Assembly (NCBI GenBank): GCA_021773435.1
Contig: JAJFKC010000016.1
Coordinates: 1-64,000 of the forward strand
Direction: 5' to 3'
From: Porticoccaceae bacterium
GTDB lineage: Bacteria > Pseudomonadota > Gammaproteobacteria > Pseudomonadales > Porticoccaceae
DNA length: 64,000 nucleotides
The notes beneath the pieces are model-generated. The model saw nothing but the letters and a program-made list of their open reading frames with translations. It was not told the origin of the DNA and did not search any database. The translations under genes were made by a program, and so were the position numbers. Position 1 is the first letter of the stretch, and each line of letters starts with the position of its first letter. This document shows positions 15,595 to 59,604 of this stretch, one piece after another.

Positions 15595-15600
15595 ATGCAC

Positions 15601-15879
15601 ATGATCAAGTCCTTCAAACACAAAGGCCTAGAAAAACTCTATTCCTCTGGTAGCACAAAAGGCATTCAAGCAAAGCATGCTAAAAAGCTTCGTATGCAGC
15701 TTATAGCTCTCGATACTGCACACCATATAGAAGACCTTGATATCCCAGGTTATCGGTTACACCAGCTGAAAGGTGGTCTCAAAGGGTGCTGGTCAATTAC
15801 TGTAAATGGAAATTGGCGCATCACTTTTGAGTTTTCCGATGGCAATATTTACATCGTAAACTACGAGGATTATCACTAA
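15601..15879 (+). CDS. higB: HigB-type toxin (RelE superfamily mRNA interferase)
   Basis: The 92-residue protein matches the HigB/RelE-like family that cuts mRNA on the ribosome when free of antitoxin. The start MIKSFKHKGLEKLY, the GIQAKHAKKL segment, the LKGCWSITVNGNWRITFEF strand pair and the closing VNYEDYH are hallmarks of this group. I place the start at the ATG at 15601, which matches known family starts; an in-frame ATG at 15595 is possible. It lies directly before higA, and the stop and next start share one base (TAATG). Confidence 0.92.
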   Translation: MIKSFKHKGLEKLYSSGSTKGIQAKHAKKLRMQLIALDTAHHIEDLDIPGYRLHQLKGGLKGCWSITVNGNWRITFEFSDGNIYIVNYEDYH

Positions 15880-16172
15880 TGGCTATGCACAATCCCCCAC
15901 ACCCTGGCGAATTTATTCAAGCTACCTACATGGAGCCATTTAATTTAAGTTGTCGTTATTTGGCGAGGCAACTAAATGTAGCAGCATCTACCCTCAACAG
16001 GGTTTTAAAAACTCAAAGTGGTGTTAGTCCAGAAATGGCGCTCCGTCTTTCAAAAGCATTGGGCCGTAGTCCTGAAAGTTGGCTTTCTATGCAAGATGCA
16101 TATGATTTATGGCAGGCTAAAAAGCGGATTAAGCTTGGTAATGTCCAAAAAATTCATATTAACGCCGCATAA
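15879..16172 (+). CDS. higA: HigA-type antitoxin (XRE family)
   Basis: The 97-residue protein is the DNA-binding antitoxin partner of HigB. It starts with NPPHPGEFI, the usual HigA opening, and contains a helix-turn-helix (LARQLNVAASTLNRVLKTQ) followed by SPEMALRLSKALGRSPESWL. Known HigA proteins neutralise HigB and repress their own promoter. Its stop codon lies within the attC site that follows. Confidence 0.93.
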   Translation: MAMHNPPHPGEFIQATYMEPFNLSCRYLARQLNVAASTLNRVLKTQSGVSPEMALRLSKALGRSPESWLSMQDAYDLWQAKKRIKLGNVQKIHINAA

Positions 16173-16251
16173 CAGGCACATCACTTGGCACAAAAAGCAC
16201 GGTGACGATAGGAGCGGCGCTTTTTGTGCCAAGTGATGTGAAACGTTAGCC
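16167..16251 (+). other. attC-like recombination site 2 with 22-bp perfect arms
   Basis: GCATAAC (16167-16173) and GTTAGCC (16245-16251) bound a perfect 22-bp inverted repeat (16177-16198 against 16219-16240) around a 20-base loop. The fold places both recombination boxes opposite each other, as in attC. It could also act as a transcription terminator for higBA. Confidence 0.8.
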
Positions 16252-48910: not shown

Positions 48911-48940
48911 AAAAAGGGCTGCATTTATGCAGCCCTTTTT
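48911..48940. terminator. Bidirectional rho-independent terminator
   Basis: A perfect 13-bp stem (AAAAAGGGCTGCA against TGCAGCCCTTTTT) with a four-base loop. A-run on one side and T-run on the other make it work on both strands, between the convergent gor and alcohol dehydrogenase genes. Confidence 0.95.
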
Positions 48941-54288: not shown

Positions 54289-57200
54289 TTAGACCGCGTT
54301 GGATTTCAGGGATTTACTCTCTTCATGCACCAAATGCTGATAAAACAGCACCGGCACCACGATAACGGTCAGGGCGGTGGACACGACTGTGCCGGATATC
54401 AGTGAAATCGCCAGGCCGCCAAATATCGGGTCGTTAATCATTACTGCACTGCCCAACATGGTCGATAAAGCAGTGAGTAAAATGGGCCGCAAGCGCAAAA
54501 GGGTGCCCTGTAGAATAGCATCGCGAACAGGTATGCCCTGGTCTCGATAATCGAGCACGAAGTCGATAATTAACAGTGAATTTCTCACCACAATGCCAGC
54601 CAGCGCAATAATGCCAATTGCGGACGTTGCGCTAAAGGCCTGGCCGAGCAGCCAGTGAGCCGGGAATATACCGATGATACCCAGGGGTATCGCTGACATC
54701 GCAATTAGAGGGATTTTGAAGGATTGATAATAAGCGGTGAGCAGGATGTAGATAAACACCACTGTCAAACCAAATGAACTGGACATGCCATTGACGGTAT
54801 CAAGTAAAAGTCGCAATTCGCCACCCCAGAGTAACTGATAGCCTTCGAGAGAATTAGGCGCCGATGGCTCCAGACCCAGATTGCCGGTGCGTAGCTGATT
54901 TCCGTTAGCGATCGCCAGGCCGTCGAGTTTATTGTTAAGCTCTATAACGGCGTATACCGGAGAAATCTGAGTCAGTTCACCTGCTACGTAAATCACTCGC
55001 TCATAATCTTTGTGAAAGATCGGTTTTTCCGCATTGACCAATGCTAGTTTGGTCAGTTCAGATAGGGGTATGGCGTCACCCTGTTGGTTGGAGATATACA
55101 TCATCGATAGATCGGCGGGTTCTACATTAAAACGCCGGGGCACATCCATGACGATGGGCACCGGGTTTTTCTCATCGGTGAGGTGGGCGCGACCTATCTC
55201 TTCGCTATCGAGAATTCTGCGTAGCAGGATGGCGACTTCAGTGGCGCTGACTCCCGCCAGGGAGGCTTTTTGTCGATCGACCGTAATTTGGTATTCGTGG
55301 GTGTCATCGGCAATCGAGTCGTAGACTTCGACCATGTCGTAGGTGTTTTCAAACTCCGCCTTTACGCGCTCGGCAGCGTCTGTCATGACCGCTAGATTCT
55401 GGCCGTGTATTTCGGCTAGCACTGTGGCCTGCATGGGTGGCCCGGGTGGGTCTTCGACTAATTGAATTAAACTGTTGGGATAGCGTTGTTCAATGGCCTC
55501 AATTTGTGGGCGCAGTTCGTAGACGATGTCGATAGAACTTTTGCTGCGCTGTTTTTTGTCGGTTAAATTGACGCGAATCTCTGCGTAGTGGGAGCCGCGT
55601 TTATTTCGTGTGCCCCGTAACAGGCCGTTAAAATCAATGACCCCCGATTGACCTACCCAGGCCTGATAATTGGTGACGTGTTCAGTAGCCCGTAGGACAA
55701 CACTGAGTTCGCGCACTACCCGATCAGTTATTTCGATCGGTGTAGTTTCAGGCATGGTCACGGCTATATTAAAGGTGTTTTTGTTGTCCCGCACAAGCAT
55801 GGTCACGGGAACGCCTAAAAAAGACTGAGGGCCGTTGACGCCTGCGGGGCGTATAAATTGCCAGGCCGATTGTAGAATGGCGAGCAAGATAGTGATGATG
55901 ATGAGTCCATAAACTACCTGGCGCAGTCCGCGCCTAGCCAGTAAGGGCACCAGTATTGATTGTAAAAAATTGGCTAGAGTAAATTCTTTAATCCCGGCTT
56001 TCGCCTCGCTGCTATTCTCTCCATTACCTAGCGCTAAATTAATGCCCAGCCGTTTTGCCTGTTGCATCCCTTCCTTGAGTCGTTCCTGCAAACGTAGTTG
56101 TTTACTCAGTTTTGAACCACTCTTCAGAGTGGCCGGGTCGAGCAATTTGTATGCCGCCCAGGGTGTCACGATGTAGGCAATCAACACCGATGCCAACATC
56201 GTAACCGGCACGTTAAATGCCAGGGGGTAAAAATACTGTCCGAGCATGCCTGTTAGAACAAACTGTGAAGCAAAGGCCAGCATAATGGCAAAGGTAGCCA
56301 GGTTGGTGGGATTGCCAATTTCATTGGTAGCCAAGATAGCGGCCTGGCGTTTGTCTCCGCCGTCGAGCTCCAAAAAGTGGCGATGGATATTTTCAACGAC
56401 CACAATAGCTCCATCGACGAGCATACCCAGAGACAGTATCAGCGCAAATAGTGTTACCCGGTTAATGGTTGGTCCAAACAAATAATCTGCACCCAGCGTG
56501 AGGGCCAAAATCAAAGGTACCGCAAACCCGACGATCAACGCTTCTTTCCAGCCGAGGAAAAAGATTGTGACGATGATAACGGCTATAACAGCAATCAGTA
56601 GATTTTGCATTAACAGGTTGACGGCATCATTGGCTTTTTTGCCATCGTCGCGGGTGATAACGACCTCAACATTGCGAGGAATAATGGTTTGCTTCATTAA
56701 TTCGATACGCGCTAATACCTCTTCGGCCATGACCACGGCATTGGTATTCGCTTTTTTGGCAACCGCAATGGTAACGGCAGGCATTTCTGGGTCGGAGCTA
56801 TCGCGCAAGCGTGCATCGTTAAAACGCTCATCTGCAAGGCCAAAGGCAAAACGGCTCAAGGTGTCCCGGTCGTGGACTGGGCCATCTGTGATTGTGGCGA
56901 TATCGGCAAGGTAAACAGGTTGTTGCTCCTGAAGACTGATAACAAGTCCCTTTAAATCATCGACATGGCTTAGCTGGCCCTTAAAGTAGATGTCGATGGC
57001 TTCGCCGTGGTTGACACTTGTCCCCACCGGGACCGATATATTGACAGCCTGAACGGCCTTGCGAATATGATCAAAGGAGATGCCGTGGGCTTTGGCTTTG
57101 CCTGGGTCGATTTCAATTCTAATCTGCCGATCACGACCGCCTTTCACATAGCTCGCTGAGACGGTTTTGATGCTGCGCAAGCGGAGTAATACTCTATCGG

Positions 57201-57693
57201 CAATGCGTTTTAGCGCATAATCGTCGTAATCTTGTGAGGCCAGAGTCACGGTGACGATGGGGACGTTATCGACATCGACACTTTTTATAATCGGCCGGGT
57301 GGCATCTGGCGGCAGGATCGCCAATTGGCCAATGACCTGATCGTAGAGCTTTACCAACGACAACTCTTTATTCGCTCCAACTTCGAACTGGACATTGATT
57401 ACGCCCATGGATGTCATTGCTGAGGAAAAGACATGGTCAACGCCAGAAATCTGTTTGACGACATTTTCCATGGGTTGAATGATGAGCTGTTCGACCTCCA
57501 GCGGAGACGCGCCAGGTAAACCGATAATAATATCCGCTCCGGGGACAACAATTTGGGGGTTTTCCTCCCTCGGTGTATAGGCTATACCCAGCACGCCGAG
57601 CAACAGACAGGCGAGCACAAATAAGCTAGTGATACGCGAGGTAACAAAAAAACTGGCTAAAAGCCCCGCTGGGTTGAGTCGGCCGTTACTCAC
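54289..57693 (-). CDS. RND efflux transporter permease
   Basis: A 1134-residue inner-membrane pump of the AcrB superfamily. Twelve membrane helices and two large periplasmic loops are expected; the first helix (SLFVLACLLLGVLGIAY) and the proton-relay helix with GMLVDGAIVVVENIHRH are clear. PGASPLEVEQLIIQPMEN and GADIIIGLPGASP belong to the porter domain. The protein is longer than AcrB (about 1050) owing to a charged cytoplasmic insertion in the middle (around residues 530-600). It lacks a recognisable substrate signature. Its ATG overlaps the stop of the adaptor gene as ATGA. Confidence 0.93.
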   Translation of the reverse strand: MSNGRLNPAGLLASFFVTSRITSLFVLACLLLGVLGIAYTPREENPQIVVPGADIIIGLPGASPLEVEQLIIQPMENVVKQISGVDHVFSSAMTSMGVINVQFEVGANKELSLVKLYDQVIGQLAILPPDATRPIIKSVDVDNVPIVTVTLASQDYDDYALKRIADRVLLRLRSIKTVSASYVKGGRDRQIRIEIDPGKAKAHGISFDHIRKAVQAVNISVPVGTSVNHGEAIDIYFKGQLSHVDDLKGLVISLQEQQPVYLADIATITDGPVHDRDTLSRFAFGLADERFNDARLRDSSDPEMPAVTIAVAKKANTNAVVMAEEVLARIELMKQTIIPRNVEVVITRDDGKKANDAVNLLMQNLLIAVIAVIIVTIFFLGWKEALIVGFAVPLILALTLGADYLFGPTINRVTLFALILSLGMLVDGAIVVVENIHRHFLELDGGDKRQAAILATNEIGNPTNLATFAIMLAFASQFVLTGMLGQYFYPLAFNVPVTMLASVLIAYIVTPWAAYKLLDPATLKSGSKLSKQLRLQERLKEGMQQAKRLGINLALGNGENSSEAKAGIKEFTLANFLQSILVPLLARRGLRQVVYGLIIITILLAILQSAWQFIRPAGVNGPQSFLGVPVTMLVRDNKNTFNIAVTMPETTPIEITDRVVRELSVVLRATEHVTNYQAWVGQSGVIDFNGLLRGTRNKRGSHYAEIRVNLTDKKQRSKSSIDIVYELRPQIEAIEQRYPNSLIQLVEDPPGPPMQATVLAEIHGQNLAVMTDAAERVKAEFENTYDMVEVYDSIADDTHEYQITVDRQKASLAGVSATEVAILLRRILDSEEIGRAHLTDEKNPVPIVMDVPRRFNVEPADLSMMYISNQQGDAIPLSELTKLALVNAEKPIFHKDYERVIYVAGELTQISPVYAVIELNNKLDGLAIANGNQLRTGNLGLEPSAPNSLEGYQLLWGGELRLLLDTVNGMSSSFGLTVVFIYILLTAYYQSFKIPLIAMSAIPLGIIGIFPAHWLLGQAFSATSAIGIIALAGIVVRNSLLIIDFVLDYRDQGIPVRDAILQGTLLRLRPILLTALSTMLGSAVMINDPIFGGLAISLISGTVVSTALTVIVVPVLFYQHLVHEESKSLKSNAV

Positions 57694-58856
57694 TGAGCTG
57701 TCTCTGCGCGGGCACCCACAGCCTCAACCGAAGCAGATCGCTCGGCCTGTATCAGGTCACCTTCTCTTATATTTGGCGGAACCTGTGCAACGATCACCTC
57801 TCCAGCGTTAAGGCCTGAGGCAATTTCTAATTGTCCCAGCCATTGCCGACGAATACGCAACCAGCGGAACCAGGCCTTGTTGTCTTTATCGATGATGTAC
57901 ACACCCTGTAGACCACCTTTATTGACCAAAGCCGAAGTCGGAATGGTAACATTCGCGCTGTTGCCAACCACAAAAGTGACGCTGCCAAACATGCCGGTAT
58001 ATAGCCCGGCACTATCGGGTAGTGCGATACTGACTTTAAAGCTTCGTGTGATTGGGTGGCCGGCATAAATTATTTGTGCGACGTTTGCCTCTATGGGTTC
58101 TGGGACATTGTCAATATCGAGAATGACTGTATCGTTGAGCTTAATATTCGCCAGCTGACTCTCGGCCACAAAAGTGTCGAACTTCAGGTTGTCTGTGGAC
58201 TCAATGGTCAGTAAGGGCAATCCCGGCGTGGCAAGACTACCCGCCTGTATATGTCGTTGGGTGACAATGCCGCTGACTGGGCTGCGAATTTGAGTGTACT
58301 GGCGCTGTCCATTTACAATCGCCAGCGCGGCCTTCGCGCTATGCAGGTTTTCCGTGGCGGTTGATTTTTGCAGTTGGGTTTTACGCACTTTTACGGCTGA
58401 AATACTGCCCTGCTCAAGTAAGGCGTCAAAACGCTCCAGATCAGCTGTGACATCGGTTAATACCGCTTGCGCAGCATCCACCGCAGCTCTGGCCTGGTTG
58501 ATGTTGTTATCCAGCTCTTCATCATCGAGCACTATGAGCAATTGCGCCTCGCTGATAGTGTCGCCTTCCTGCACAGTGACCTGGCGGATATAGCTGCTGA
58601 TACGGGAGGAGATATTGATGTTGCTATCAGCCACCACCGAGCCGATGACTGTGTATCGTTCGGCAAGATTTTCTTTTTGTACGGTTATAACCCTGGCTTT
58701 CCAGGTGTTTGGATTCGCAACTTGCTCGCTGGAGTTATCATCGCAAGCGGTTAGTGCGGCGAGTAATGTTGTAAGGGATATGACAAGCGCCGAGAAGCCC
58801 AACGACCCCTTAGTTGGTTTTATCACAGACTGTCTTTGGAGTATTTTTCTTTTCAT
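57690..58856 (-). CDS. RND efflux periplasmic adaptor, lipoprotein
   Basis: A 388-residue membrane fusion protein. The lipobox LTAC with Asp at position +2 after the cysteine predicts retention in the inner membrane. The adaptor layout is present: VIGSVVADSNINISSRISSYI (lipoyl), a helical hairpin (NQARAAVDAAQAVLTDVTADLERF), QIRSPVSGIVTQRHIQAGSLATPG and a C-terminal barrel with QVPPNIREGD. It joins the pump to the TolC-type channel. Confidence 0.93.
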   Translation of the reverse strand: MKRKILQRQSVIKPTKGSLGFSALVISLTTLLAALTACDDNSSEQVANPNTWKARVITVQKENLAERYTVIGSVVADSNINISSRISSYIRQVTVQEGDTISEAQLLIVLDDEELDNNINQARAAVDAAQAVLTDVTADLERFDALLEQGSISAVKVRKTQLQKSTATENLHSAKAALAIVNGQRQYTQIRSPVSGIVTQRHIQAGSLATPGLPLLTIESTDNLKFDTFVAESQLANIKLNDTVILDIDNVPEPIEANVAQIIYAGHPITRSFKVSIALPDSAGLYTGMFGSVTFVVGNSANVTIPTSALVNKGGLQGVYIIDKDNKAWFRWLRIRRQWLGQLEIASGLNAGEVIVAQVPPNIREGDLIQAERSASVEAVGARAETAQ

Positions 58857-58903: not shown

Positions 58904-59497
58904 TCAGTGCGCGAGCAAGCCGTTTTCCAGCAGCGCTGTGATATGCCGAGCAATGGTCTCGGCTTTATCGTGCTGGGCGCGCCTGCCGGGCATTTTTTTT
59001 CGAACTGCCAAACTTTCGAAGTGGTACAAAACCAGGCCAATAATTGAGGTGGCCAGCAGGTGAGGATCGTATTGTTTTTTGAAAGATTCCCCTAAATTTT
59101 GTATGGCACAAAATAGTTCCTGAAAGGTGTTTGTGGTTAATGCTTGAATGCGTTTTGGATCATTGTCTAGCATCACCCACTGGAGTAGTTTCTGGAAGTC
59201 TTTATCTTTATTCAGTGCACGAACAAACCAGACAATAAATGTTTCGAGCCGCTTAACTGGTTCTTCATCCTCGGTCATAATGGCCGTTGCATCGGTGATT
59301 TTCTTCTTGAATACGCGGTTGACTACCTCCGCATACAACTCATCTTTATTTTTAAAATGGTAATAGAGTGCCGCAGGTGTCACGCCTACGGCTGTCGCCA
59401 GATCGCGCATGGATACCCCGTTATAACCCAGCCGAGCAAAGAGAGGCGTTACTCTATCAAGAATAAAAGGGCGGCTGTTTCGTGTATTTTTGACCAT
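58904..59497 (-). CDS. TetR-family transcriptional regulator
   Basis: A 197-residue repressor with an N-terminal helix-turn-helix (MRDLATAVGVTPAALYYHFKNKDELY) and a ligand-binding C-terminal half. It is the first gene of the efflux cluster, 47 bases before the adaptor gene on the same strand, and a 42-bp palindrome lies just upstream of its start. It probably represses its own operon until a pump substrate binds (inference from the family). Confidence 0.92.
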   Translation of the reverse strand: MVKNTRNSRPFILDRVTPLFARLGYNGVSMRDLATAVGVTPAALYYHFKNKDELYAEVVNRVFKKKITDATAIMTEDEEPVKRLETFIVWFVRALNKDKDFQKLLQWVMLDNDPKRIQALTTNTFQELFCAIQNLGESFKKQYDPHLLATSIIGLVLYHFESLAVRKKMPGRRAQHDKAETIARHITALLENGLLAH

Positions 59498-59515: not shown

Positions 59516-59557
59516 TAGCTATGATTTACTAAACGAACGTTTAGTAAATCATAGCTA
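59516..59557. promoter_or_regulatory. 42-bp perfect palindrome, candidate TetR operator
   Basis: Two perfect 20-bp arms (TAGCTATGATTTACTAAACG and its complement) flank a 2-base centre. The core ACTAAACG-AA-CGTTTAGT is the kind of site TetR-family proteins bind. It lies 19 bases upstream of the tetR start, where the promoter should be. The outer arms could allow two dimers to bind or form a cruciform. Confidence 0.75.
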
Positions 59558-59604
59558 ACCGTTCAATTCAATCCAGTAGCAATGATTTAGATAGGTTAAA
59601 TTAG

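Follow-up and report, generated by a model that had tools for sequence, protein, structure and literature searches.

The window analysed here, a 64,000-nucleotide stretch of DNA, comes from a 3.4-Mb draft genome of 49 contigs (G000) and carries, within an 87-kb contig, a long inverted repeat at 59516-59557. The repeat lies upstream of a tetR gene, 18 nt from its ATG (59497, minus strand). The tetR gene is followed by an adaptor gene and then an RND gene, all on the minus strand and leading away from the repeat. Upstream of the repeat, and in the same direction as tetR, are a PEMT/ICMT-type methyltransferase gene and an rsmE-type gene. The top curated names for the regulator (SACE_7040, ScbR, AcrR and MtrR) all score far under cut-offs, and we therefore refer to it as TetR/AcrR-type without specific assignment. 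The features of the locus are listed below.

54289..57693, minus strand: RND efflux permease gene (ACR_tran; profile match), with a 4-nt overlap with the adaptor gene
57690..58856, minus strand: RND efflux periplasmic adaptor gene (HlyD/RND_mfp; profile match)
58904..59497, minus strand: TetR/AcrR-type repressor gene, 197 aa (Pfam TetR_N, E 1.3e-14)
59516..59557, no strand assigned: whole inverted repeat, 20-nt arms and asymmetric 2-nt centre (from the sequence)
59516..59527, minus strand: leader-side outer arm AAATCATAGCTA, mirroring the promoter-side arm; region unconserved in relatives (alignment and pairing table)
59528..59545, minus strand: operator core ACTAAACG-TT-CGTTTAGT, predicted one-dimer TetR-type site; conserved upstream of homologous tetR genes, sole exact copy in the genome
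59546..59557, minus strand: promoter-side outer arm TAGCTATGATTT (tetR sense), holding the -10-like hexamer (core-anchored alignment with relatives)
59548..59553, minus strand: -10-like hexamer TATGAT, 2 bp before the core; same place as TATAAT/TAAAAT in relatives, 10/10 family loci
59571..59576, minus strand: weak candidate -35 CTGGAT, 17 bp from the -10, 2/6 to consensus; relatives there have TTGNTT or TTGTCT

The two arms of the repeat (59516-59535 and 59538-59557) are 20 nt each, 100% complementary and separated by 2 nt. The initial annotation had described a 42-bp perfect palindrome. This holds for the arms, but the 42-mer as a whole is imperfect because its centre, AA on the plus strand and TT on the minus strand, is not palindromic; it differs from its own reverse complement at these two bases only. 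Our own calculation, which takes a probability of 4^-20 at each of some 64,000 places and for a small number of loop sizes, puts a repeat with 20-nt arms far beyond chance. Two layers can be distinguished within it: an inner 18 bp, ACTAAACG-NN-CGTTTAGT, and the outer arms.

The distribution of the core was analysed at homologous loci. A search of the family gave a tetR match in 10 of 112 genomes at E 1e-20 or better, in 2 of 14 genera, and a search of the order gave a match in 14 of 390 genomes at 1e-15 or better. Upstream DNA was compared at all 25 loci matched in these searches, 20 of which (window included) have an adaptor or RND match in the locus. Each locus was searched for the core from 150 bp upstream to 30 bp downstream of the estimated tetR start. 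The core was present in all 20 pump-neighbour loci, with 0-5 mismatches in the best match; when each locus was shuffled 300 times by single bases, at most 1.7% of the shuffles did as well. No core was found in L125, L133, L136 and L137, which are without a pump neighbour (6-7 mismatches, shuffle share 0.19-0.84). The fifth locus without a pump neighbour, L008, has a degenerate core that was seen in the core-anchored alignment, having escaped the shuffle-tested scan because the estimated start is misplaced there. Of 368 further genomes sampled from the class, none contains the exact core.

Two of these loci show peculiarities of their own. At L008 (G029:C55:27764-28331) the tetR orthologue is split over two frames and there is no adaptor match in the locus, which looks from its sequence like a decaying copy. 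L139 has two core-like sites, starting about 118 and 46 bp before the estimated tetR start, each with 3 mismatches to the window core; the second was found by eye.

Core-anchored alignment also revealed a fixed promoter geometry. In 10/10 family loci (L125 lies outside this alignment) a -10-like hexamer is placed exactly 2 bp before the core, reading TATAAT in L002-L004, TAAAAT in L005-L008, L123 and L124, and TATGAT in the window. The -35 element of the relatives is TTGNTT, 17 bp further up, in 8 of 9, and TTGTCT at 16 bp in L002. The window offers, beside the candidate listed above, an alternative -35, TGGATT, with a 16-bp spacer and 3/6 agreement with the consensus. A consensus promoter scan of the window made no call at the predicted tetR promoter. 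With the core placed 2 bp downstream of the -10-like hexamer, a repressor bound to it should lie over the start of transcription, which is the usual mode of repressors of this kind.

The core travels with the repressor-pump module over roughly 31-76% protein identity and, since it accompanies the module across this range, it behaves as would be expected of that repressor's operator. The suggestion in the initial annotation that the core could bind the repressor is strengthened, as a prediction, by this conservation at homologous tetR-pump loci whose protein identity is as low as about 31%. Taken together with its position at the promoter of tetR and the target genes, its near-palindromic form conserved with the orthologous repressor and its fixed promoter spacing, all characteristic of TetR-type operators, sequence comparison indicates that the inner 18 bp very probably serves the adjacent TetR-type repressor as its operator. 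The core would thereby represent a concrete conserved operator for a pump-repressor family, usable to predict regulation in related bacteria.

Autoregulatory operators of the TetR/AcrR type precede RND pump operons, as with AcrR, MtrR, TtgR and the like. The present locus resembles these in having the repressor gene beside adaptor and RND genes, a near-palindromic promoter site and a TetR_N domain. In acrR-acrAB, however, repressor and pump diverge, whereas here they run in one direction, and the 20-nt arms of the window are without counterpart in the relatives examined. In our reading, the feature is an ordinary TetR-type operator, here unassigned, whose unusual extension most likely arose by mutation. 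Judged by title and abstract start, none of the papers listed in our literature searches matched the core to a characterised operator; a paper found via the core letters concerns, in the part available, an OxyR site and not a TetR operator (PMC13253662).

Other identities for the repeat were examined and set aside. According to the initial annotation, its interpretation would fail if the palindrome occurred in many unrelated places as a mobile or terminator element. We looked for this: the element is single-copy in its own genome and has no plasmid match, in disagreement with a mobile or repetitive palindrome (REP, MITE). Nor does it qualify as an intrinsic terminator: the terminator scan reports none at the repeat and there is no T-run on either side. 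Similarity to phage DNA was limited to weak matches in four records of Fusobacterium phages, at 82% across 51 bases (E 3e-3; 36% of the query), which we judged to be chance matches on A+T-rich hairpin sequence. When up to 3 mismatches were allowed, the core pattern occurred at 11 places in the genome (1 exact, 1 with 2 and 9 with 3 mismatches). The same pattern read backwards gave 36; the inexact places therefore do not exceed chance expectation, and we propose no regulon. The sole place with 2 mismatches is within an open reading frame whose product, judged by eye from the sequence, is amidohydrolase-like.

The outer arms behave differently from the core when compared with relatives. Over the nine family relatives, columns of the core carry 1.62 bits of information on average, against 1.30 bits for the 12 nt that precede the core and form the -10 region, and 0.36 bits for the 12 nt that follow; thus the promoter-side arm coincides with the conserved -10 region while the leader-side arm falls in variable sequence. 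Pairing between the arms was tabulated in 19 rows, which leave out L138, L139 and the four coreless loci (L125, L133, L136 and L137). Arm positions 9-13 are paired at 43% in the 18 relatives and at 5/5 in the window, and are also fully paired (5/5) in L003 and L124. With this level of pairing, complete in two relatives, these positions may form a weak extension of the operator, as part of a longer site. At arm positions 14-20, pairing is 7/7 in the window and 25% in the 18 relatives, about chance, with a maximum of 4/7 in any of them. A 34-bp extended pattern, with up to 3 mismatches allowed, was absent from the other 111 family genomes, and no second core half-site could be read in the outer arms. 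These three results run against the proposal that the outer arms bind a second dimer. The initial annotation had further taken the perfect arms as a sign of strong selection or recent origin. As the arms are far beyond chance and were found in none of the other genomes searched, they point to a recent event or to use by this lineage alone; recent origin is thus supported in direction, while strong selection, given that the arms are absent in relatives, is not. Overall, a second dimer and an RNA switch gain little support, nor does anything point to cruciform extrusion.

We consider it rather probable that the inner 18 bp is the operator and that the outermost arms are dispensable, having been made by a template switch. 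With a TetR dimer on the core, the DNA immediately downstream of the -10 box, the expected place of transcription start, would be covered, and tetR itself, along with the adaptor and RND pump genes, would be shut off until a ligand releases the repressor. The outermost parts of the arms would be unnecessary for this repression. The promoter-side outer arm would simply be the -10 region, and the leader-side arm its reverse-complement copy, made when the replication fork switched template at an imperfect operator palindrome (quasipalindrome correction). One such event suffices, and it accounts for a mirrored -10 box where no promoter is needed. In bacteria, quasipalindromes are established sites of template switching, which is described, in the parts of two papers available to us, as producing perfect or more perfect inverted repeats (PMC7202029; PMC8794818); in the corresponding part of a third, the term refers to an RNA-end method (PMC12724241). 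The quasipalindrome mutations of Escherichia coli (lacZ reporters and the thyA hotspot; PMC7202029, in the part available) likewise turn an imperfect repeat into a longer perfect one, which fits a core flanked by mirror copies, but the window shows the outcome alone, in one genome.

These long arms were seen in the window genome alone among those searched. The relatives are without the extension and keep the -10 side, although the nearest is at 76% protein identity and leader-side alignment is uncertain. Because the closest orthologue found is only 76% identical in protein, the copying event is something we infer and do not see. The alignment holds two further details. The window has three extra promoter-side bases (AGC) that are missing in L002 and L005, and on the leader side a GCTA, noted by eye, is common to 5 of 6 sister-genus relatives. 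Copying in both directions is therefore possible: part of the promoter-side arm (the AGC) could, on these comparisons, have been copied from the leader side, and the direction of copying is uncertain. Such an origin would mean that an operator within a long perfect palindrome does not necessarily have a larger binding site, and that comparison with relatives separates a conserved core from arms probably derived from a copying error.

Several alternatives ascribe a function to the long arms. They could be protein-binding DNA, occupied by two cooperative TetR dimers in the manner of QacR or SlmA, or by a second protein on the outer arms. Binding as a dimer of dimers is known in the TetR superfamily for QacR, SlmA and CprB, according to the part available of one review (PMC6018408), and SlmA also appears, at a low rank, in the list of 49 solved structures that match the regulator weakly in sequence. 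We nevertheless regard this as unlikely, given that 20-nt arms are present in none of the relatives examined and that the outer arms are without a second core half-site. The dimer-of-dimers operators treated in the same part of that review use overlapping sites, with a QacR fragment of 28 bp, so that a 42-bp repeat is unneeded (PMC6018408). Nor was a QacR-like 42-bp site found to be conserved among orthologues, as pairing at positions 14-20 is at chance in the 18 relatives and the extended pattern occurs in 0 of 111 genomes. Alternatively, the repeat could act as RNA, with a long hairpin ahead of tetR, in read-through from the methyltransferase gene, that stalls ribosomes, undergoes RNase III cleavage or serves to insulate the operon. 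The region does fold into a 19-bp stem (z = -6.06 versus shuffles), the upstream gene is codirectional, and the scan showed no terminator-like site between it and tetR on that strand. Such a role is very unlikely, however, when the hairpin is missing in relatives, when the lack of a T-run means that it is not an intrinsic terminator, and when the transcript from the predicted tetR promoter would start inside the repeat and so carry one arm only.

The mirrored hexamer raises the question of a second promoter. TATGAT does occur on the plus strand (59520-59525), in the same placement to the core as its twin, and could serve as an outward promoter, one operator then controlling two divergent starts. 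The promoter scan reported no plus-strand site there, a result tempered by its having also missed the proposed minus-strand promoter; moreover, the plausible genes rightward to the end of the window are all on the minus strand, so that the outward product would be an antisense RNA. We find this highly improbable. Finally, a fold-back error in assembly might have doubled one arm, the genome being a draft of 49 contigs. This is scarcely credible for a repeat that lies within an 87-kb contig and is flanked in both directions by gene-bearing sequence, since fold-back chimaeras usually mirror far longer stretches.

Long perfect hairpins were surveyed in the window and the fetched loci. In 853,847 bases there are 35 with an arm of at least 14 and a loop of at most 8, and in 8 of these, that of the window among them, the arms reach at least 20. 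One of the 35 was counted twice, L003 being within the same record as L043, and because the loci were mostly fetched around tetR homologues the survey is not a random sample. Another of the 8, in the same genome as the window (contig C48; L040, 125-169), has 20-bp arms separated by a 5-nt loop and lies inside a 109-codon open frame; long perfect hairpins can thus arise without any operator. A further long palindrome with a 4-nt loop (L043, 1442-1481, the same as L003, 2184-2223) recurs at the matching place in L004 with one mismatch; both relatives belong to the genus of the window. It has 18-20 bp arms, lies about 200-245 bp upstream of tetR, is unrelated to the operator and has no T-run.

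The survey also revealed long perfect palindromes at Bacteroidota tetR loci. Their core, AACATACTA-NN-TAGTATGTT, was looked for in 79 further loci (L044-L122), many but not all from Bacteroidota. Taking the best match anywhere in each locus, 53 of the 79 had at most 4 mismatches, including one from Lederbergia (L060) at 4 mismatches that is probably due to chance, and 44 had at most 1; L069 has no such core. Perfect arms of at least 17 are present in 7 of the 53 (L078, L085, L095, L100, L104, L105 and L111), and all but L078 are from Dyadobacter. In these six, pairs 13-16 and 18 vary between species on both sides with complementarity kept, and position 17 is invariant; L100 and L111 have identical arms. 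Most of the outer pairing is missing in L090 and L098, which are also Dyadobacter. Over the 44 loci within 1 mismatch of the core, a set that includes the near-copies L080, L081 and L082 and the same-armed L100 and L111, pairing is 165/308 at positions 12-18 and 130/528 at positions 19-30. The arm in L095 runs into and mirrors a TAnnTTTG-like box, which we take to be a promoter-like motif.

From their place, we infer that the Bacteroidota palindromes are TetR operators. Judged by title and abstract start, no paper listed in our literature searches concerned a TetR operator for this core, or one with long arms. The Bacteroidota palindromes resemble that of the window in having a conserved core by a promoter-like box and, at some loci, species-specific and perfectly paired outer arms, but the core and the phylum are different, and partial pairing to position 18 is common among them, whereas in the relatives of the window pairing past position 13 is at chance level. 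Since the Dyadobacter loci show such arms, long species-specific outer arms are not unique to the window, and the extension of arms around tetR-linked palindromes may be a recurrent phenomenon. The pair-preserving, two-sided changes in Dyadobacter could reflect selection on the arms or else repeated template switching. In its widest form this would mean that TetR operators in distant phyla repeatedly gain promoter-mirroring arms, which are kept paired as a hairpin or cruciform at the start site that aids regulation, with the palindrome in the window as a gammaproteobacterial case; we think this quite unlikely. Should such extensions prove recurrent, as the Bacteroidota loci suggest, operators would be good sites at which to follow how template switching remodels promoters.

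Two other inverted repeats within the window were noted. A 14-bp perfect hairpin with a 2-nt centre (AAAAAGGGCTGCAT/ATGCAGCCCTTTTT, 48911-48940) looks like a bidirectional terminator. At 16177-16240, perfect 22-bp arms around a 20-nt loop form the one inverted repeat listed in the window that is longer than the repeat at 59516-59557. It follows directly after a HigBA pair (15595-16172; HigB-like toxin and HTH antitoxin genes) and is flanked by GCATAAC and GTTAGCC, which resemble the two boxes, R'' and R', of attC sites in integrons; the region may be an integron toxin-antitoxin cassette or a lone attC site.
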